Assembly (NCBI RefSeq): GCF_016592575.1
Contig: NZ_AP017470.1
Span: forward strand, 1,553,501 to 1,617,500
Reading direction: 5' to 3'
Length of the DNA stretch: 64,000 nucleotides
From: Thermotomaculum hydrothermale
GTDB lineage: Bacteria; Acidobacteriota; Holophagae; Thermotomaculales; Thermotomaculaceae
Shown: in pieces, positions 15,520 through 64,000 of the stretch
How the letters are laid out: the number at the start of each line of letters is the position of its first letter
How positions within the stretch are numbered: position 1 is the stretch's first letter
Notes under the pieces: model-generated
The model's database searches: none
Seen by the model: the letters and a program-made list of their open reading frames with translations, nothing else
What the model was told of the DNA's origin: nothing
Made by a program: the position numbers and the translations under genes

Positions 15520-15617
15520 GGAAGCGAATGGGGGCTGGTGTCCCCCCCGGTCTTCAAAACCGGTGGGCCTATACGGGGGTATAGGTCGGTGGGTTCGATT
15601 CCCACGCGCTTCCGCCA
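15520..15617 (+). tRNA. selC: Selenocysteine tRNA, anticodon TCA
   Basis: The acceptor GGAAGCG (15520-15526) pairs with CGCTTCC (15607-15613), followed by discriminator G and an encoded CCA. The D arm has a long GGGGG/CCCCC stem. The anticodon stem CCGGT/ACCGG encloses loop CTTCAAA, anticodon TCA at 15554-15556. A long variable arm CCTATAC/GTATAGG is followed by a T arm GTGGG-TTCGATT-CCCAC. The GGTTCGATTCC T loop, the oversized variable arm, the extended D stem and the TCA anticodon are the tRNA-Sec hallmarks. With CCA excluded it is 95 nt. It implies that UGA is decoded as selenocysteine in this organism (selA, selB and selD must lie outside the window). Confidence 0.96.
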
Positions 15618-29040: not shown

Positions 29041-29684
29041 TGGTAAAAGGGCTGTTTATAACATTTGAAGGAATTGAAGGGTGCGGAAAATCCACTCAGG
29101 CAAAACTTTTAAAAGAATACCTTGAAAAAAAAGGGCTTAAAACAATTCTGTCAATGGAGCCCGGGGGAACTGAGATAGGGCAAAAAATAAGGAACATACT
29201 TGTAGACCCAAAATACAAAGGCATACTCCACCCTGTAACAGAAGCTCTTTTATATCAGGCTGACAGAAATCAGCATTTGAAGGAGAAGATAATCCCTCAC
29301 CTGAACAATGGATATGTGGTAATTTGCGACAGATACCAGCACTCTTCTTTGGCTTATCAATGCTATGGAAGAGAGCTTGATATTGAAAAAATTGAATGGG
29401 TTTTCAGAAACATTGTTGAAGGCATTGAACCTGATATAGTTTTTTTAATTGACATTGACGAAGAAACTTCTTTAAAAAGGGTAAATAAAAGGGCTCAAGT
29501 TGAAAATATTGAGCTTTCAAGGTTTGAAATTGAGCATAAAAACTTTCACAAAAGGGTGAGGCAGGGATTTTTAGCCCTTGCAAAAGAGAACAACAACTTT
29601 GTGGTAATTGACGGAAAAAAGAGTATAGAAGATATTCACAAGGAAATAGTATCAATAGTTGAAAAAAGGCTGAAAAATGTTTGA
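29040..29684 (+). CDS. tmk: Thymidylate kinase
   Basis: Tmk phosphorylates dTMP to dTDP. The 214-aa protein has the P-loop FEGIEGCGKSTQAKLLKEYL (about 8-27), the DRY-type motif VICDRYQHSSLAYQCYGREL (about 95) and the LID region TSLKRVNKRAQVENIELSRF with DIDEET before it. Length and order match the bacterial family. Its ATG overlaps the stop of the AAA+ activator and its stop overlaps holB by eight bases, the common tmk-holB linkage. Confidence 0.96.
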   Translation: MVKGLFITFEGIEGCGKSTQAKLLKEYLEKKGLKTILSMEPGGTEIGQKIRNILVDPKYKGILHPVTEALLYQADRNQHLKEKIIPHLNNGYVVICDRYQHSSLAYQCYGRELDIEKIEWVFRNIVEGIEPDIVFLIDIDEETSLKRVNKRAQVENIELSRFEIEHKNFHKRVRQGFLALAKENNNFVVIDGKKSIEDIHKEIVSIVEKRLKNV

Positions 29685-32079: not shown

Positions 32080-32503
32080 AATTCTAATTTATACAGACGG
32101 TGCATGCAGCGGCAACCCGGGACCCGGTGGGTTTGCCGCTATTTTGTTGTACAAAGACAGAGAAAAGATTATTTCAGGTTTTGAAAAAGAAACCACCAAC
32201 AACAGAATGGAATTAAAAGCAGTTATAGAAGGGCTTAAGGCTATAAAAAACAAAAATCTCCCTGTAGTGGTTTATACAGATTCAATTTATGTGCAAAAAG
32301 GTTTAACAGAATGGATTGAAAACTGGAAAAAAAGAGGGTGGAAAAAGGTCAAAAACACAGACTTGTGGAAAGAATTAGATTTAATTGTAAATCAATTTAA
32401 AAATATCGAATTTAAGCACATAAAAGGACATTCTGGGGAGAAATACAACGAGCTTGCAGATAAAATTGCAAGGAATGAAATTCGAAAAAATCAAAGCTTA
32501 TGA
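32063..32503 (+). CDS. rnhA: Ribonuclease HI
   Basis: The 146-aa enzyme degrades RNA in RNA-DNA hybrids. Motifs are intact: IYTDGACSGNPGPGGFAAIL (Asp 1), ETTNNRMELKAVIEGLKAI (Glu), VVYTDSIYVQKGLTEWIENW (Asp), KKRGWKKVKNTDLW and IKGHSGEKYNELADKIA (His loop, Asp). The handle region WKKRGWKK is of the E. coli type. ATG 32063 lies within the 3' end of the FHA-RDD gene, so translation is coupled. Its stop overlaps the convergent dnaG 3' end by 13 bases. Confidence 0.95.
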   Translation: MSLENKILIYTDGACSGNPGPGGFAAILLYKDREKIISGFEKETTNNRMELKAVIEGLKAIKNKNLPVVVYTDSIYVQKGLTEWIENWKKRGWKKVKNTDLWKELDLIVNQFKNIEFKHIKGHSGEKYNELADKIARNEIRKNQSL

Positions 32504-34194
32504 AAATCTTTTTGCAATTGCACCTTTTGATTTAAAAGCATAAGCTTTTCATCGTCAGTCAAGGAATCTGCAAATGTTTTCAATTTTTCATTTATATTTT
32601 CAATCTGTTTCTTAATTGAAAGCCTTTTAATGGTTTTTAAAATAACCCTTAAATCGCTTGTGACAGAATCAACGGATGAGAGAATTTCTTTTAATTCCTC
32701 AGGCAATTCGTGTGCAATATGCCCAATTATTTCATAATCCAATTCCATAAGTTTTTGATAAAAAGGATAACAGGGTAAAGTTTCTATATAGCCCTTTAAT
32801 TCTCTATCAATCTCACTCTTTTTTTGGGAATTAAATGCAATAAAGCACAAAAGAGCCTTTTCCTCTTCTGAAAACAAAACTTTTCCTTTTTTCTCCTCCT
32901 GTTTTACATAGGTTCTAAAGCTATTTTTATCGGATATTTTTTTCAATTCAGATAAAAGATTGTTTTCAGGGACATCAAGCATTGAGGCAATCTCCCTTAC
33001 ATAGTAACCCTGCCTTACCCTGTCATCAATTTTTGAAACTGTTTCAAGAATTAATTTAATTGATTCAAGTTTCTCCCTTAATGATTTTGAGTGAAAATCT
33101 TCTTTGTTTAGAAAATACTTTGTTAGAAATATTGGAATTTCATTTGCGCCTTCAAGAAGGATATAAAAACTTTCCTTACCAAATTTTCTAACAAAACTGT
33201 CAGGGTCTTCCCCCTCAGGCAAATCTATGGCATAGACAAATAATCCTTCGTTTGCAAGTATTTCAAAACTTCTTATTGCCGCTTTTAAGCCTGCCTGGTC
33301 TGCATCAAAACTTAAATAAACCTTTGAGGCAAACCTTCTTATCAACTTTGCATGCCTTTCTGTAAATGCGGTACCTAATGCCGCAGCAACCTCAAAAACC
33401 CCATTTTGAAACAGGGAAGCAAAGTCCATATACCCTTCAACAAGTATTACAAAATCCCTTTTTCTGATATAGTCCTTTGAAAAATTCAAACCGTAAAGAA
33501 GTGTCTTTTTCTCAAAAACCGGGGTGGTAGGAGAATTTAAATACTTGGGAGCATTTTCTGATTTTTCAATAATCCTTCCCCCAAACCCAACAACTTTATC
33601 AAAGAGGTTGAATATAGGGAACATAATCCTTTTTCTAAACCTGTCTATACCCCCTGAAATAGTTAACCCCGCTTTTTCTATAACATCTCTGTCAAATCCT
33701 TTTTTCAAAAGGTAGTTTATCACCCCACTTTCAGGGGCAAAACCTAATTTAAGAAATTCAATAGTCTCTTCAAGTATGCCTCTTTCAGTCAAATATTTGT
33801 ATGGTTTTGAATCTTTTTTTAGATTTTGCCTGTAATAGTTCTGTGCCTCCTGCAAAACATCAAATATTGCATCTTTTTCTGTTTTATCATACCCATCTGA
33901 GGTGTACTTTATAGGGATATTGTACTTTTCTGCAAGAAATTTAACAGCCTCGTTAAAATCAAGGTTTTCAATCCTTTCAACAAAAGAAATTACATCCCCG
34001 GAAGCCTTGCATCCAAAACAATGGAATAACCCAGAATCAGGATTGACATAAAAAGATGGGGTTTTTTCAGAGTGAAATGGACACAAAGCCCTCAACCTGC
34101 TTCCTGCCCTCTCTAACTTCACATACTCCCCTATCAAGTCTTCAATATTTATCAACGATTTTAATTCCCTTATAAAATCAGGAGAAAACCCCAT
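32491..34194 (-). CDS. dnaG: DNA primase
   Basis: The 567-aa primase synthesises RNA primers at the replication fork. The N-terminal CHC2 zinc domain has C38, H41, C59 and C62 (LCPFHSEKTPSFYV, FHCFGC). The RNA polymerase core contains FPIFNLFDKVVGFGGRII. The TOPRIM domain has VILVEGYMDFASLFQNG and VYLSFDADQAGLKAAIRSFE. The C-terminal helicase-binding region (about 430-567) is helical and diverged. I start it at ATG 34194, nine bases after GAGGG. It is convergent with rnhA; no rpsU or rpoD is visible nearby. Confidence 0.95.
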   Translation of the reverse strand: MGFSPDFIRELKSLINIEDLIGEYVKLERAGSRLRALCPFHSEKTPSFYVNPDSGLFHCFGCKASGDVISFVERIENLDFNEAVKFLAEKYNIPIKYTSDGYDKTEKDAIFDVLQEAQNYYRQNLKKDSKPYKYLTERGILEETIEFLKLGFAPESGVINYLLKKGFDRDVIEKAGLTISGGIDRFRKRIMFPIFNLFDKVVGFGGRIIEKSENAPKYLNSPTTPVFEKKTLLYGLNFSKDYIRKRDFVILVEGYMDFASLFQNGVFEVAAALGTAFTERHAKLIRRFASKVYLSFDADQAGLKAAIRSFEILANEGLFVYAIDLPEGEDPDSFVRKFGKESFYILLEGANEIPIFLTKYFLNKEDFHSKSLREKLESIKLILETVSKIDDRVRQGYYVREIASMLDVPENNLLSELKKISDKNSFRTYVKQEEKKGKVLFSEEEKALLCFIAFNSQKKSEIDRELKGYIETLPCYPFYQKLMELDYEIIGHIAHELPEELKEILSSVDSVTSDLRVILKTIKRLSIKKQIENINEKLKTFADSLTDDEKLMLLNQKVQLQKDFHKL

Positions 34195-34261
34195 ATAGTA
34201 CAACCCTCAAATTTAATTTCAGATTAAAGTATAGCACAGAGAAAATATTTTTATTTACCAC

Positions 34262-34288
34262 AAAAAAAGCCCCGGCAAAACCGGGGCT
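34262..34288 (-). terminator. Strong intrinsic terminator after the MtrB-like gene
   Basis: On the minus strand AGCCCCGG-ttttg-CCGGGGCT (34268-34288) is followed by seven T (34262-34268). It lies 26 bases downstream of the TAA at 34314. Its placement shows that the natural transcript of the MtrB-like gene runs through the in-frame TGA at 34749-34751 to 34314. Confidence 0.9.
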
Positions 34289-34313: not shown

Positions 34314-36440
34314 TTAGAAGAATAACCTGAATCCTAACCTACCATATACCCATTTTCCATCCTGATCACCGTAAACATACGGTTGATCATCGGTGGCTTT
34401 GTTGTAATCAATCTCAGCAAGAATGGAGAGGTCTTTGGTAATGTAGTAGTAAAATTCTGCCTTGAACTGAAGGATTTCAAAATCAAGATCAGAGTACTGG
34501 TCAATTTCTGAATAGCCTTCAAAATCAAGGTGCTCAATTGAATCAATAGGTCCATCCCAGCTTGTTATTGGGTCAAAGTGGGCTTTTGCATTAGAAATAG
34601 ATGTTGTTAAATTAATCTCAACATTTTCAAACGGCATTGAATTCAATGAAAGATAGTAAGTGTTTGCAGTCTGGTGGTACTCTGTTAAAGAGGTAGCTGT
34701 ACCGTAATGTAACCATCCTCCGACACCGTCGGAGAGAACTGCGCCGCCTCACCCATCCATTATGGGCACGGCAAACAGCGTTGTTTGAGAGCCGTTTGAA
34801 TAATCGTACCCTAAAGTAATAACGGTATTGTCATTCAACTGAACAAAGTAATCAAATCCAGCATTTTTAGCTGTCAAATCCATTTTGTAAGTGTTTAACT
34901 CGTCATTCTCGCCGTCTCTGTAATTTCCGTAGATATTCAAAGAGGAGTTGTCAGTTAAATCAATTGTAAATGAACCCTTAATTTTAAAGTCCTGATTGGG
35001 CAATGAAGTAGCCTCTCCACTTCTTTCCCTTAAATAGTACCAAAGTGGTCCATTACTATAGTTGTGATAGGATTCTTCGTAAATTCCATTATAGCTTTCA
35101 AAAGGATGATCAATGTCTTCGTAGGATACTTCAAAGAATGCCCTTGATCCTTCAAACCTTCCGTCATACCTTATTTTAAACAGGTTCTTTGTTGTGTCAG
35201 TTGATTTGTTTTCATAGTTAACAATCAGATTATCCCTATCAATCTGCTGGTACCTGTAGGTAAAGGTTAACCTCTGATTTGGAGAGAATTTGTATATTCC
35301 CCTTAATTTGAAGTAAGATACATCTCTGTTAAAAGAAGAGTATCTTGTGAAAGCCATTGGGTCTCCGGTTACTCTCCAGTTTGGAAGATCAACAAAGTAA
35401 TCGTCATTGTCTATTGTGTAATAGGAGAAATAAGCATCAAATCTGAAGTTTTTAGAGAATTTTCTTGTGTAACGGAGAGAACCTGCTTTAGTGTCCATTT
35501 GCAGGTCAATGGCTTTATTCTTCTGAGTAGAATAGAGAAGTTTAGCATAAATTGTGTCTTTTGGTGAAATTACACTTTCAATAGAAACTGCATTTTCAAA
35601 CATCTCATTATCATTGTTGTAATCTGCAGGAAGTCTTTCCCCACCAAAGATTGTCCTTGAGGCAAATTCATCTACCAGAGTGCCTTTTACAGGGTGTCTT
35701 GGTAAATCATAGTAAAAGGAGTATTGATCAGCCCTGTTGTTGAATTTTGAGTATGTTCCTTTGTAAGAAATATCAGTATTACCAACCTTTGCGTCTGCCT
35801 TTACCCATAAATCATAAGTCATTTCATCAGTCTTCCCTGCCTTGGAAGTGATGTGGCAGGAATCACAGTGAGACAACCCATTAATCTGATGATAACCTTT
35901 TCTGCCCATTGAGCTTAAACCAACCTGAACATGTTTAAATGGGCTATCATTGTCAAGGTTAAAATCAAATACCTGGCTGAATTTTTCATAAACAGTGTAG
36001 TAATCTACATCAGGGTCATAATCTTCGTGAAATACGAATTTTCCACCAGGGGTGTTATTAACTGGATCAACCGATTCTCTTCCTTCCAGGTTTGCTAATT
36101 TATCATGTCCAAGCCTGTGGAAGAATTTGTTATAGGTGGTTGTAGATTTAAACCATGTTCCACTGTTTATAACAAGTTTGAAATTCATATCAGAATGGGA
36201 TTCAACTTCACCTTCCCATTTTATCTTTACATCACCGTCTGTTTTAACCCACCTGAACTTTAAACTTCCTTCAGCATGAGTAATAGCTTCATCATATTCA
36301 GCTGCCTTGGTGCCGTCTTTAGTTACTGAGCTACCGTGTGCCCCAATTTCAGCGTAGTTTGCGCTCTCTTTTTTGGGTTCACCGGCAAAACACCAGGCAG
36401 AAACAAACAATATTGCGAGAAGTGCAATTAACTTCCTCAT
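34314..36440 (-). CDS. MtrB/PioB-like outer-membrane beta-barrel with in-frame TGA (putative selenoprotein)
   Basis: The frame has 708 sense positions with one TGA, at codon 564 (34749-34751). Residues 1-19 are a signal peptide. CDSCH at 192-196 is a c-type haem or Cys-pair motif near the N-terminus, where MtrB-family barrels carry a CXXC. The rest alternates short aromatic beta-strands and acidic turns, typical of a large barrel. After the TGA the frame continues in phase: first GGAVLSDGVGGWLHYG, then more strands. The end, YGRLGFRLFF, has the terminal Phe needed for barrel assembly. Without read-through the protein lacks its last strands. The fragment 34314-34646 has no ribosome binding site of its own. 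It follows a decahaem cytochrome by 10 bases, forming an MtrAB-type conduit. Sec is inferred; a nonsense mutation is the alternative. Confidence 0.82.
34713..34751 (-). promoter_or_regulatory. Candidate bacterial SECIS element directly after the in-frame TGA
   Basis: Starting from the TGA (34751-34749) the mRNA has 21 nt and then loop GGU (34727-34725). The stem is UCCGAC (34733-34728) paired with GUCGGA (34724-34719), extended by C34734-G34718. If U34735 is bulged, C34736-G34717 and U34737-A34716 extend it further. A short stem, small apical loop starting with G, a bulged U and about 20 nt from the UGA match bacterial SECIS elements read by SelB. The segment is far more GC-rich than the surrounding gene. 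Confidence 0.72.
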
Positions 36441-36450
36441 AATTCCCTCC

Positions 36451-37368
36451 TTACCTGGTTAATGCCTTACCCTGTCCGCTTAAGCCCTCGGACGGGAGGT
36501 CTGTACCGTGAACCCTTGTATGACACTGGGTGCACTTGGTAGTAAACGCTCTCTTAAAAGACTGCCTATCTGAACGCACAACCCTATCCGGATGGTTAGG
36601 CTCTGTTGAAGTTCCCTCATATCCGGGTAAAGTTGCATGGAAATGCATCTGGTGGCACTGTAAGCACAGGAAAGGCTCATTTTTCTTCAAAAGATTATCA
36701 GCAACTGCTCCATGAGGATTGTGGCATATTGTACAATTCTCAGCAACTGGAGCATGCTCGAATACAAATGGACCTCTGTACTGTGGATGACAGCTTAAGC
36801 ACTTTGCATTTACCCTTTCATCCAGCTTGTTTTCTTCTGAGCCATCAAACTTGTGACAATCAATGCATTTCATCTTTCCTTCTTTTACAACCGGGTGGTG
36901 AGAAGGAAGTAAAAACTGTGCTCTTTCCTTTTTGTGACAGGAAATACAGAGTTTGTTCTCCTCTTTTACCAGACTACCTTTAAAAGCAGGCTGGTGAACC
37001 TTGTGACAATCTGTGCAGCCTACTCCATACTCAATAACATGTTTTTCTTTTAATCCATGAAGAACATTAGAGTGGCATTTTAAGCACTGTTTTTCAAGTT
37101 TAAATTTGTTGTTAGAAGGGCCATAAATCAAAGACGGGTCCTCTTCATCTGCATGCTGTTCGCCAGGACCGTGACATGCTTCGCACTTAAATTGGTCGCC
37201 TTTTTTAAAGTAAGTGGCATGGAATGACTTATCAAAAGCCGTTACCACATCTTCATGGCAACCTGAACATGTGTCCACTCCGACAAAACCTTTGTCGGCA
37301 GAAATTGCCAGGCTTGGGAAAAATAACACAAACCCGACAACCAAACAAATTAAAGTTAACCTCCTCAT
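36451..37368 (-). CDS. Periplasmic decahaem c-type cytochrome (MtrA/DmsE-like)
   Basis: The 305-aa protein has a signal peptide (to about residue 24, SLAISA) and ten CXXCH haem motifs: CSGCH, CEACH, CLKCH, CTDCH, CISCH, CIDCH, CLSCH, CTICH, CLQCH and CTQCH. Length and haem number match the MtrA/DmsE/PioA family, which passes electrons from the inner membrane through an MtrB-type outer-membrane barrel to the cell surface. The barrel gene follows 10 bases downstream. No MtrC/OmcA-like surface cytochrome is adjacent. ATG 37368 follows GGAATGGAGAGG. It probably supports extracellular electron transfer. Confidence 0.93.
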   Translation of the reverse strand: MRRLTLICLVVGFVLFFPSLAISADKGFVGVDTCSGCHEDVVTAFDKSFHATYFKKGDQFKCEACHGPGEQHADEEDPSLIYGPSNNKFKLEKQCLKCHSNVLHGLKEKHVIEYGVGCTDCHKVHQPAFKGSLVKEENKLCISCHKKERAQFLLPSHHPVVKEGKMKCIDCHKFDGSEENKLDERVNAKCLSCHPQYRGPFVFEHAPVAENCTICHNPHGAVADNLLKKNEPFLCLQCHQMHFHATLPGYEGTSTEPNHPDRVVRSDRQSFKRAFTTKCTQCHTRVHGTDLPSEGLSGQGKALTR

Positions 37369-37573: not shown

Positions 37574-38479
37574 CTAATACCTGTAAACATCACAGAGTTT
37601 CGTTGAAAGGTATCTTTCTCCTCTATCCCCGCATATAAAAACAATATTCGCATTTTCAACCTTTTCAGCAATCTTTAATGCCTGACATAGGTTCGCCCCG
37701 CTTGATATCCCGGCAAAAATACCTTCTTTAAGTGCTAATTCTCTTGTGTATTTGTATGCTTCCTCGTCTGTTACAGTTTCAAGTGAGTCTATTTTATCCT
37801 TATCCCAGATAGGTGGGACATAACTTCCGTCAAGGTGCAGCAAACCTTCAATATGGCTTATCGGAGTGGCAGGGTGAACCCCTATTATCTTTACTCTATC
37901 TCCAAATTCCTCTTTCAAAGCTTTTGAGACACCCATTAAAGTGCCACCTGTTCCCAATCCTGCCACAAAGTAGTCAACCCCCTCATCCTTTAAATCCCGT
38001 GCAATCTCTTTTCCAGTTATATAATGGGCTTCTGTATTGCCCTGGTCTCCATTCTGGTTAAAGTAATAGTATTTTTCAGGATCTTTTGAGCACAACTCCT
38101 CTGCAGCCTCAATATGGCTATTCTGATTGGTTGGATCTGTCAAAATCAACTCTCCTCCCCAGGCCCTTATCATTACCCTTCTTTCCATACTTTTGCTTTC
38201 AGGCATAAAAATCCTGCACTTGTATCCTTTTAAATTGCATATCATTGAGAGGGCAATACCTGTATTTCCACTTGATGCTTCTACAATTATCATATCCTTT
38301 TTTAATTTTCCTTCTTTTTCAGCCTTTTCAATCATGTATTTAACAATCCTGTCCTTTAATGAACCAGAAGGATTAAACATCTCCAATTTTGCAAAAATAC
38401 GCACATTTTTTTCAGGTTTTGAAAACCTCTTTAATTCAACAAGAGGTGTGTTCCCAACTAAATCCAGAAAAGTTTTCAT
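37574..38479 (-). CDS. cysM: Cysteine synthase (O-acetylserine sulfhydrylase, CysM-like)
   Basis: This PLP enzyme makes cysteine from O-acetylserine or a related acceptor and sulfide. The 301-aa sequence has FLDLVGNTPLVELKRFSKPE, the PLP lysine in NPSGSLKDRIVKYMIEKA (about K42), the substrate loop VEASSGNTGIALSMICNLKG (about 67), the phosphate-binding GLGTGGTLMG (about 173) and the ISSGANLCQALKIA tail. It is slightly shorter than CysK and the IRAWGGELILTDP segment resembles CysM. In the sequence shown, it stands alone; the upstream gene is radC. An alternative acceptor such as phosphoserine cannot be excluded. Confidence 0.92.
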   Translation of the reverse strand: MKTFLDLVGNTPLVELKRFSKPEKNVRIFAKLEMFNPSGSLKDRIVKYMIEKAEKEGKLKKDMIIVEASSGNTGIALSMICNLKGYKCRIFMPESKSMERRVMIRAWGGELILTDPTNQNSHIEAAEELCSKDPEKYYYFNQNGDQGNTEAHYITGKEIARDLKDEGVDYFVAGLGTGGTLMGVSKALKEEFGDRVKIIGVHPATPISHIEGLLHLDGSYVPPIWDKDKIDSLETVTDEEAYKYTRELALKEGIFAGISSGANLCQALKIAEKVENANIVFICGDRGERYLSTKLCDVYRY

Positions 38480-49094: not shown

Positions 49095-49670
49095 TTGGAT
49101 GAAAAAAAAGGGTTAATAAAAAAAATTAAATCATTTTTTAAAGACAGGATCTTTGTAAAAGGATTAATTGTGGGGGTTATATTTGCCACCGTTTTCATAA
49201 TCTTTCAAATAGGAATAATTGAACACACCTCAACACCTGAATTCTGTGCCAGTTGTCATTCAATGGAAGTTTTTCATGTAGCATGGGAAGAGGGGGTACA
49301 CGGTACAGGGAAAAAAGGTATTGTTGTGGCAAGGTGCGTTGACTGTCATCTTCCCCACGACAATTTAGTGCATTATCTATGGGCTAAAGGTGTTTCTGGT
49401 ACAAAGGATACTGTTGCCACAATATTCGGTTACCAGCCTGACTGGATCAAAAACCTTGAAAGAAGGGAAGAGTTTACCTATGAGTCAGGTTGCAAAAAGT
49501 GCCATGTAAATTTAGTTGCTCCGGGAATTCCCATCAAAGCATTTAAAGCCCACAGACAGTATGAATTAGGGGAGACAAATAAAACCTGTATATCCTGCCA
49601 TCAGGATGTGGGGCACGGTGACTTAAAACTTAAACTCTCAAATAAAATTGTTAACAAGGAGGCTTTATGA
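49095..49670 (+). CDS. NapC/NirT/NrfH-family tetrahaem quinol dehydrogenase
   Basis: The 191-aa protein has one N-terminal helix (about 22-42; [20 protein letters not shown]) and four CXXCH motifs (CASCH, CVDCH, CKKCH, CISCH) in the periplasmic part. This matches NrfH/NapC proteins that take electrons from menaquinol. The start is a TTG at 49095, seven bases after GAGGTGAG; the ATG at 49099 is out of frame. Its ATG-proximal neighbour, overlapping by four bases, is an octahaem HAO-like protein, so the pair forms a menaquinol-to-HAO module similar to the epsilonproteobacterial HaoCA. Confidence 0.93.
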
Positions 49671-51016
49671 GAAAAGGTGTCTTAATTCTGGTATTATTCG
49701 CATTTACTGCCCTTTTTGCCTACGGGGAGAATAATGCGACAAAAGGTAACAACTATCCAAACCTTTCAAAAGCGGATCTAAAAATTAAGAGAGGTTATTC
49801 AAAAGAAGCGTTGAAGTGTATTCAATGCCACTCTGAAAAGACACCAGGGATAGTTGCAGACTGGAAAGACGGAAGAATGGCTCATGCAGGGGTTTCCTGT
49901 TATGACTGCCATGTTGTTAAAAAGTCAAACCCCATGGCATCTCAATGTCCTGGAGTTAAGGGGACAAACATTTACATCTCTCCAATGGTGTCATCAAAAA
50001 CCTGTCAAAAATGCCATCCAACTGAAGTTGAACAATTCCTTAAAAGTGGACATGCCAAATTAGCCGCTGCTCCAGTGGTTGACAAAGCAAAGTTTCAAAA
50101 ACTTATGTACCATTTTGAAGGTGGAGAATTTATGGGTGTAAAAAAGGGAATAGGGAAAAATACTGCTACAAGGCGTTCCGGCTGTCAGATGTGCCACGGA
50201 ACAAAGGTTGAGGTTAAAAACGGAAAACCAATAAACGGCACATGGCCTGCCGGTGTAGGAACAAGATACCCTGATGGAGGCATAGGAAACTGCTCTGTTT
50301 GCCATACAAGGCACAGATTCTCCATTGAAGAGGCAAGGAAGCCAGAAGCGTGCGCATCCTGCCACTTAGGCCCCGACCATCCAAATATAGAGATTTATCT
50401 CGAGAGCAAGCACGGTCAGATGTATTTAACAGATGGTGAAAAGTGGAATTGGGATTCAGCCCCTGATGCGTGGGAGCCTGGAGATTATAGAGCACCAACA
50501 TGTGCAACCTGCCATATGAGCGGAATTGGAGAGTTAAGCACAACTCACAATGTTAACGAAAGGTTGCACTGGGATTTGATGCATAAAAAGAGTGTTGTAA
50601 GAAGCGGAGAAAGAGGAAACGGGAAAAAAGGAAGACCTTTAATGAAAAAGGTTTGTCAGAATTGCCACTCAAAAACTCAGACAGATGCAACATTTGAAAC
50701 TCTTGATGATTCAGTTGCTCTTTACAATGAATATTTTGAAAAAGCAGATAAAATGTTAAAAGACTTAAAGGCAAAAGGCTTACTTAAAAAAGACCCATGG
50801 TCAGATTCTTTCCAGGAACTTTACTACTTCTTATGGCACCATGTTGGAAGAAGGGCAAGAATGGGAGCAGCAATGAATGGGCCTGATTACGCCCACTGGC
50901 ATGGATTCTTCCAGTTATTCCAGGTATTCAAAGATATGCAGGAGATTTATAATTACAGAATTAAGCATAACAAGATTGAAGAAGTTTCATTTGTAATGTC
51001 AAGTGCACCTTTATGA
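49667..51016 (+). CDS. Octahaem hydroxylamine oxidoreductase-like cytochrome (HAO/epsilonHao type)
   Basis: The 449-aa secreted protein has a signal peptide (about 1-20) and eight CXXCH motifs (CIQCH, CYDCH, CQKCH, CQMCH, CSVCH, CASCH, CATCH, CQNCH). The C-terminal region [20 protein letters not shown] followed by AHWHG is typical of the HAO family. Members oxidise hydroxylamine or hydrazine, or reduce nitrite. With the adjoining NrfH-like quinol dehydrogenase, a reductive role toward nitrite or hydroxylamine is more likely. The cross-linking Tyr that makes P460 haem in oxidative HAO should be checked by alignment. A strong terminator follows. Confidence 0.9.
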
Positions 51017-61636: not shown

Positions 61637-61753
61637 GCCTGGCAGCGACCTACTTTCCCACGACTAAACGCCGCAGTATCATCGGCCCTGAGGGGCTTAA
61701 CTACCGTGTTCGGAATGGGTACGGGTGTGGCCCCCTCGGTATGGCTACCAGGC
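61637..61753 (-). rRNA. rrf: 5S ribosomal RNA
   Basis: The minus strand reads GCCTGGTAGCC at the 5' end (61753) and GCTGCCAGGC at the 3' end (61637). The ends pair, giving a 117-nt 5S with the conserved CCGAACACGG loop. An immediate T-rich run on the minus strand (61626-61636) may end the rrn operon. It is more GC-rich than the nearby genes. Confidence 0.97.
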
Positions 61754-61788
61754 AATATCTTAAATCAAGAGAATGCAAAACAGGATTT

Positions 61789-64000
<2,212 letters not shown>

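Follow-up and report, generated by a model that had tools for sequence, protein, structure and literature searches.

The DNA analysed here, referred to below as the window, is a stretch of 64,000 nucleotides (nt) from the genome of Thermotomaculum hydrothermale, which consists of a single contig of 2.3 Mb (NZ_AP017470.1, positions 1,553,501 to 1,617,500). On the minus strand, a gene for a decahaem c-type cytochrome is followed by a gene for an MtrB-like porin whose reading frame contains one TGA, predicted to encode selenocysteine (Sec), and a tRNA-Sec gene lies in the same window (Table 1). Translation of 34314-36440(-) yielded 563 residues, the TGA and a further 144 residues up to a final Phe and a TAA stop. 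Only two TGAs in the window were flanked on either side by 80 or more open codons: that of the porin gene and one at 29404, which lies in a minus-strand frame opposite larger plus-strand open reading frames (ORFs). A terminator-like stem starts at 34288, 26 bases past the porin stop; although terminator-like sites in the window number 3 against 2.9 expected by chance, this one is credible because it is positioned directly after the porin stop. No Shine-Dalgarno-like stretch was found ahead of TTG 34646, the listed start of a separate downstream ORF; by contrast, AAGGAGGG sits ahead of the porin ATG. Thus, translation and inspection bore out what a reading of the letters alone (hereafter the sequence-only reading) had described, namely, a single TGA in an otherwise open 708-codon frame with Sec as residue 564, a Phe-ended C-terminus with a terminator 26 bases on, the lack of a ribosome-binding site before 34646, and a tRNA-Sec within the same window.

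Table 1. Features of the porin-cytochrome locus and the tRNA-Sec gene in the window.
Feature	Position	Strand	Remarks
MtrB-like porin gene, read through the TGA	34314..36440	-	708 residues, Sec at 564
TGA within the porin frame, predicted to encode Sec (residue 564)	34749..34751	-	column conservation, Cys relatives
144 codons after Sec: last five predicted strands and C-terminal Phe	34317..34748	-	
CXXCH at porin residues 192-196, predicted to sit at the tip of an extended hairpin on the outer side	35853..35867	-	invariant
Likely ribosome-binding site for porin translation, AAGGAGGG, which overlaps the cytochrome stop codon	36445..36452	-	direct reading
Terminator-like stem-loop followed by a T run, 3' of the porin	34268..34288	-	
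Hairpin UCUCCGAC-GGU-GUCGGAGG, resembling a bacterial Sec insertion sequence	34717..34735	-	apical loop 34725-34727, 21 nt after UGA
Decahaem c-type cytochrome (10 CXXCH), relative of GSU2203/OmcK and MtrA	36451..37368	-	NF041028, 6r2q_A
tRNA-Sec gene (selC)	15520..15613	+	76.3 bits versus gathering score 47

Relatives of the porin were collected by searching 150 related genomes with the read-through protein (match in 16) and 396 genomes of the phylum with the alignment A1 built for the family (match in 49). Together, these searches yielded 31 read-through loci in Acidobacteriota genomes, counting the window, in which a single TGA interrupts the homologous frame. This TGA occupies the identical column in each of the 31, usually within P-[VIL]-x-D-G-U and followed in every case by [AG]-[AG]; among the matches from the 150 genomes, identity decreases to about 25%. 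Two genomes of one family (G210 and G419) carry TGC, a Cys codon, at this column, and neither TAA nor TAG was found there among the loci aligned to it. Locus L043 was excluded from the counts based on 29 rows and was recovered as L052 (G168), and L020 and L032 are one gene. The matches in G188, G361, G369 and G408 were left unclassed, as they are too short or are cut or broken ahead of the column; some dozen weak, partial matches from the 396-genome search likewise stand outside the counts.

The protein databases hold both forms of this column. The 20 database proteins matching the window protein are 563-595 residues long and every one ends in Gly, cut at the UGA. Cys forms first appeared among the protein matches with a Cys-type query; beyond the first protein search, the A1 profile contributed only the fragment P0021, and a scan of IMG/VR returned no relative. 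The Cys-form query retrieved 55 database proteins, of which 46 have Cys at the column (44 of these exceed 640 residues), 7 stop exactly one residue short of it, 1 (P0077) has Gly and 1 does not reach it; hence Cys occupies the column in 44/45 full-length relatives of the Cys form. Altogether, 27 family proteins in the databases stop at the column (20 + 7), all Gly-ended just before it, and about a fifth of the protein is thus missing from these entries. One of them, P0075, is cut at the Sec position and is related to the full-length P0077 with its Gly, perhaps reflecting a one-base loss of the Sec codon. The sequence-only reading had proposed inspecting homologues for Cys or TGA at this column, and these are the forms that prevail there.

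The codons behind the UGA look to be under purifying selection, judging from the ratio of nonsynonymous to synonymous substitution rates (dN/dS), which was 0.07-0.12 3' of the UGA (7 gene pairs) and 0.03-0.12 5' of it (6 pairs; the upstream dS between the window and L006 was not computable). These ratios are rough because several dS values exceed 1, and the gene pairs are not mutually independent.

The machinery for Sec incorporation is present in the genome: SelA, SelB and SelD scored 569.5, 355.1 and 340.9 bits, respectively. SelB exceeded its cut-off in 30/31 genomes with the Sec form, and the 31st (G008) shows SelB in two pieces, whereas none of the 4 genomes with Cys or other non-Sec forms reached the cut-off. 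Similarly, a tRNA-Sec of at least 60 bits was detected in 25/31 Sec-form genomes versus 0/4 non-Sec genomes; the 60-bit line is our own choice and falls within the gap between 60.8 and 54.4 bits. The genome also provides a control for Sec decoding: its selD (L057, G000:C1:901670-902596, -) contains an in-frame TGA (AAGUAGKLG), followed by the hairpin AGGUC-CGGGA-GACCU, which has G in the first two loop positions and its loop 16 nt after the UGA.

Published limits for bacterial Sec insertion sequence (SECIS) elements, as given in PMC13188914, are a loop of 3-9 nt, a stem of 4-16 base pairs, G in the first two loop positions, a UGA-to-loop distance of 16-37 nt and an energy of -7.5 kcal/mol or lower. 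The check after the TGA that the sequence-only reading had suggested gave a positive answer: the window hairpin fits these limits for loop, stem, spacing and energy, with a 3-nt GGU loop, 8 pairs, a distance of 21 nt and -10.4 kcal/mol for the hairpin alone. An uninterrupted hairpin within all the limits follows the UGA in 25/31 Sec-form genes, compared with a background pass rate of 6% for codons elsewhere in these genes (every second codon of 29 genes; 1.8/29 expected; 0.9% in the window gene), and in neither of the 2 Cys forms. The window's own genome family has CUCCGAC-GGU-GUCGGAG under the peptide SDGVGG, and other Acidobacteriota mostly have a hairpin like GGCC-AGUUU-GGC under GQFG, with the loop 22-23 nt after the UGA; the encoded peptides thus differ between the two groups. 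Across 21 sequences with the GGCC-AGUUU-GGC-like hairpin, the stem showed 28 double-change cells versus 11.6 in shuffles (0/500) and a covariation score of 0.334 versus 0.118 in shuffles (0/500), or 0.087-0.214 when partners were slid by 1-3 columns. Furthermore, 12/14 genes use TTT for the Phe encoded in the loop, with 2.25 expected from each gene's own usage, and the hairpin stretch falls within the most stable third of its gene in 29/29 cases (median 0.086).

The porin matches PF11854 (MtrB/PioB) with 30.2 bits (cut-off 23). TIGR03509 matches 3/16 members of A1 at E 0.001, and the window protein lists NF041027 only; the porin profile had no sequence-level match to solved structures up to E 1. 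The structure model used here (77 rows, mean predicted local distance difference test score (pLDDT) 84.0) replaced a first one (25 rows, 65.8). The predicted fold is a 26-strand MtrB-like barrel, and in structure comparison of the model, the MtrB fold came out well above other barrels. The 144 residues after Sec make up the last 5 of the 26 predicted strands, and Sec itself falls into the loop that joins predicted strands 21 and 22, so that the sequence-only reading was right in locating it near the last strands. The long-loop side of the model, taken as the outer side, holds 30/31 conserved positions, including the CXXCH, of which C192, C195 and H196 are invariant, and Sec.

The cytochrome encoded next to the porin matches NF041028 (GSU2203 decahaem cytochrome; 375.2 bits, cut-off 325) and also exceeds the cut-off of the DmsE-type TIGR03508. 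Its best match among solved structures is 6r2q_A of the Mtr complex entry (E 7e-39), which we take to be MtrA despite the odd molecule name given for this chain. Wherever the upstream flank was read, the porin was accompanied by a same-strand upstream ORF, with 10 CXXCH in 32/34 distinct loci and with 8 CXXCH up to the sequence end in the remaining 2 (L042 and L043). The pairing extends to the Cys forms and the non-Sec paralogue, and the gap between the two genes is 13-42 nt in most loci, a few values being too large where the porin start was guessed. An adjacent outer-surface multihaem MtrC, as in MtrCAB, is not present at the window locus, where the neighbours are a dnaG-like gene behind the porin (32491-34203) and a gene for a pyridoxal phosphate enzyme (37574-38479), neither with a CXXCH. 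Behind the porin, a multihaem ORF was found in 1/35 loci, with 1449-1497 nt of downstream flank read in 31 loci and 53-444 nt in the other 4. This ORF, in G168 (L052), has 13 CXXCH, starts 164 nt past the porin stop in the same orientation and perhaps encodes an outer-surface partner. The own genome contains a second porin-decahaem pair (L019, G000:C1:2155055-2157004, -), with no TGA and with an NF041027 score of 335.6 bits, slightly below the cut-off of 350. Elsewhere in the window, 49095-51016 (+) encodes an NrfH-like protein with 4 CXXCH and, after it, a protein with 8 CXXCH that is weakly similar to hydrazine dehydrogenase, both below curated cut-offs, and 5S and 23S rRNA genes occupy 61637-64000 on the minus strand.

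Taken together, the column, the Cys forms, the hairpin, the machinery and the predicted fold strongly support Sec in an MtrB-like porin paired with a decahaem cytochrome, as the sequence-only reading had proposed; in particular, it is very likely, judging from the comparison of sequences, that the UGA at 34749-34751 is decoded as Sec. We assign a probability of roughly 0.8 to the reading in which the UGA is decoded in this way and the gene pair yields an MtrAB-like conduit, with the decahaem cytochrome inside the predicted 26-strand barrel. Under this reading, the UGA would be decoded through SelB and the hairpin, and read-through would complete a barrel that, given the predicted fold and the gene pairing, would enclose the decahaem cytochrome in the way MtrB encloses MtrA. 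In the absence of Sec, translation would yield a 563-residue protein lacking five strands and the C-terminal Phe, and would probably be degraded. A C-terminal Phe is usually needed for outer-membrane assembly, and because the 563-residue product would have neither the five strands nor this residue, Sec decoding might gate the assembly of the conduit. At the outer mouth, the putative haem of the porin and Sec could pass electrons to or from extracellular partners, serving as the final redox site that links the wire of cytochrome haems to acceptors outside the cell, and this haem-Sec site might do part of the job of the separate surface cytochrome in MtrCAB.

Several observations weigh against this reading, in whole or in part. 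Residues other than Sec and Cys occur at the column: Gly in the full-length P0077 (1/45), Lys in the own-genome paralogue L019, and Tyr or Asp, depending on the alignment, in one distant relative shared by G148 (L018) and G232, which are not independent. Thus, the barrel can do without Sec or Cys. No tRNA-Sec of at least 60 bits was found in G007, G107, G120, G175, G298 and G344 (6/31, all multi-contig); five of these lacked any match at E 1e-8, and G298 reached 50.5 bits. The strict hairpin test was failed by 6/31 Sec-form genes, and the hairpin of the selD control, at only -5.3 kcal/mol, lies outside the published energy limit. Two of the five covariation measures, those least swayed by relatedness, showed no excess over shuffles (4 versus 4.0 pairs changed on both sides, 12 versus 12.0 further pair types). 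Dinucleotide shuffles gave no excess hairpin stability (z about 0 for short stretches); other positions of the genes, covariation and codon use were relied on instead. In the model, the Sec loop (563-575) has a pLDDT below 50, and in the wider alignment A4, which omits P0021, P0022, P0056 and P0069, the one-sidedness is weaker, with 53/59 conserved columns on the outer half. The putative haem of the porin is deduced from its CXXCH motif, the 13-CXXCH ORF of G168 indicates that a surface cytochrome is not always missing, and no functional data on T. hydrothermale were found.

Of the alternatives, a Sec that is real but structural or regulatory, acting outside electron transfer as a sensor of selenium supply that sets the amount of conduit, holds up best and is a distinct possibility, although we consider it less probable than not. 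The Gly and Lys forms fit it, as does the lack of a CXXU-type redox motif, the family being entered with '-' in the motif column of the tables in the 2022 and 2026 reviews (PMC9312934, PMC13188914). However, Sec and Cys replace each other within a site (Gly-Sec-[AG]-[AG]) that is conserved in other respects, and the conserved residues, CXXCH included, cluster on a single side of the model; both findings speak for a chemical role of Sec. That the porin is instead a transporter or channel for metals or selenium oxyanions appears improbable: ExtI, which is porin-like and belongs to a Sec-linked cluster of Geobacter, is described as affecting selenite and tellurite reduction (PMC5877670), but the pairing with an MtrA-like decahaem cytochrome, the MtrB fold and the treatment of OmcKL as a porin:cytochrome conduit (PMC10553843) argue otherwise. 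Very little room is left for a UGA read as another amino acid, such as Trp or Gly, or for general UGA suppression, given that the single relative with Gly is set against Cys in nearly all full-length relatives of the Cys form, that TGA ends many ORFs of the window, and that SelA, SelB, SelD, tRNA-Sec and a hairpin within the SECIS limits are at hand. The TGA is equally unlikely to be a true stop followed by a separate or decayed frame: gene callers do end the 20 database proteins at the Gly before the column, but the column is shared by 31/31 loci without TAA or TAG, full-length Cys forms run through it, dN/dS behind it is low, no ribosome-binding site precedes 34646 and the product would have 21/26 strands. 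The readings as a true stop, a sequencing error or two separate genes were rejected on the grounds of the conserved column, the open Cys forms and the selection after the UGA.

Beyond the MtrAB-like conduit with Sec, a more specific and tentative proposal, which we rate as possible rather than probable, is a selenium-gated conduit. The porin's own haem and Sec would be carried by two extended hairpins at its outer mouth and would form a haem-selenolate exit in place of a surface cytochrome. With the last five strands encoded after the UGA, the conduit could be built only with selenium available. Porin-cytochrome conduits carry electrons between cells and minerals, electrodes or partner cells; if the sheath needs Sec both for its completion and for an outer redox site, mineral respiration in these bacteria would be controlled by the supply of selenium. 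Moreover, a host lacking a fitting Sec signal would then produce a truncated porin from the gene pair.

The sequence-only reading had further taken the porin for a new selenoprotein family and knew of no described selenoprotein that is a conduit porin; neither claim is supported. The window protein matches NF041027, the GSU2204 family CXXCH-containing (seleno)protein, with 387.2 bits (cut-off 350), and the match to this 580-position model ends exactly at residue 563, one before Sec. NF041027 matches 16/16 A1 members at E 0.001, and 2/55 database relatives of the Cys form carry its name from NCBI. The GSU2204 family is also tabulated in the 2022 and 2026 reviews (PMC9312934, PMC13188914). With the model match and the review tables, the claim of a new family fails, and the observation and the Sec reading stand: the window porin is, by sequence, a well-supported additional member of an already catalogued family of predicted selenoproteins. 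No text on the role of Sec in the family was found among the open-access literature matches listed, in which the two review tables are what connects this conduit with selenium. The 2026 review refers to a 2008 paper for the family and to a 2016 paper for its neighbours in the table; the main text of neither paper contains the terms MtrB, porin, outer membrane, cytochrome or beta-barrel. What is added here is comparative support in Acidobacteriota, the RNA covariation, the assignment of the part after Sec to the last five predicted strands, the one-sided conservation, and a Sec/Cys split accompanied by loss of the hairpin and of SelB in the two Cys-form genomes.

Among known systems, the closest is the NF041027 family itself, with which the window protein shares the CXXCH, the UGA right after the end of the model and the decahaem neighbour (NF041028). 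No difference in kind from the family was found; the hairpin and peptide differ between its own genome family and other Acidobacteriota. Within the same genome, SelD likewise has an in-frame TGA with a SECIS-like hairpin; that hairpin is weaker than that of the porin, and SelD is a cytosolic enzyme. ExtKL of Geobacter resembles the porin in being a predicted selenoprotein tied to extracellular electron transfer (PMC5877670, PMC13188914) but is a multihaem cytochrome without a barrel. The OmcK/OmcKL conduit, relatives of GSU2203-2204 including that of HotSeep-1, is likely the same gene pair as in the window, because the cytochrome model is named after GSU2203 and OmcK is GSU2203. In G. sulfurreducens, GSU2203 (OmcK) and GSU2204 were up 2.68- and 2.36-fold with hematite and 1.65- and 1.53-fold with magnetite (PMC4070692, Table 2). 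OmcKL-type pairs are put forward as conduits in syntrophic sulphate reducers in PMC10553843, where, by contrast to the present reading, 'seleno' is absent from the main text and Sec is undiscussed. Finally, MtrB of Shewanella MtrCAB (6r2q_B) and PioB/MtoB share with the porin the 26 strands, predicted here, and an adjacent gene for an MtrA-like decahaem cytochrome. They differ from it in that no multihaem ORF lies behind the porin in 34/35 loci within the flank read. To our knowledge, MtrB has no CXXCH, whereas the window porin has a CXXCH of its own and a Sec codon.
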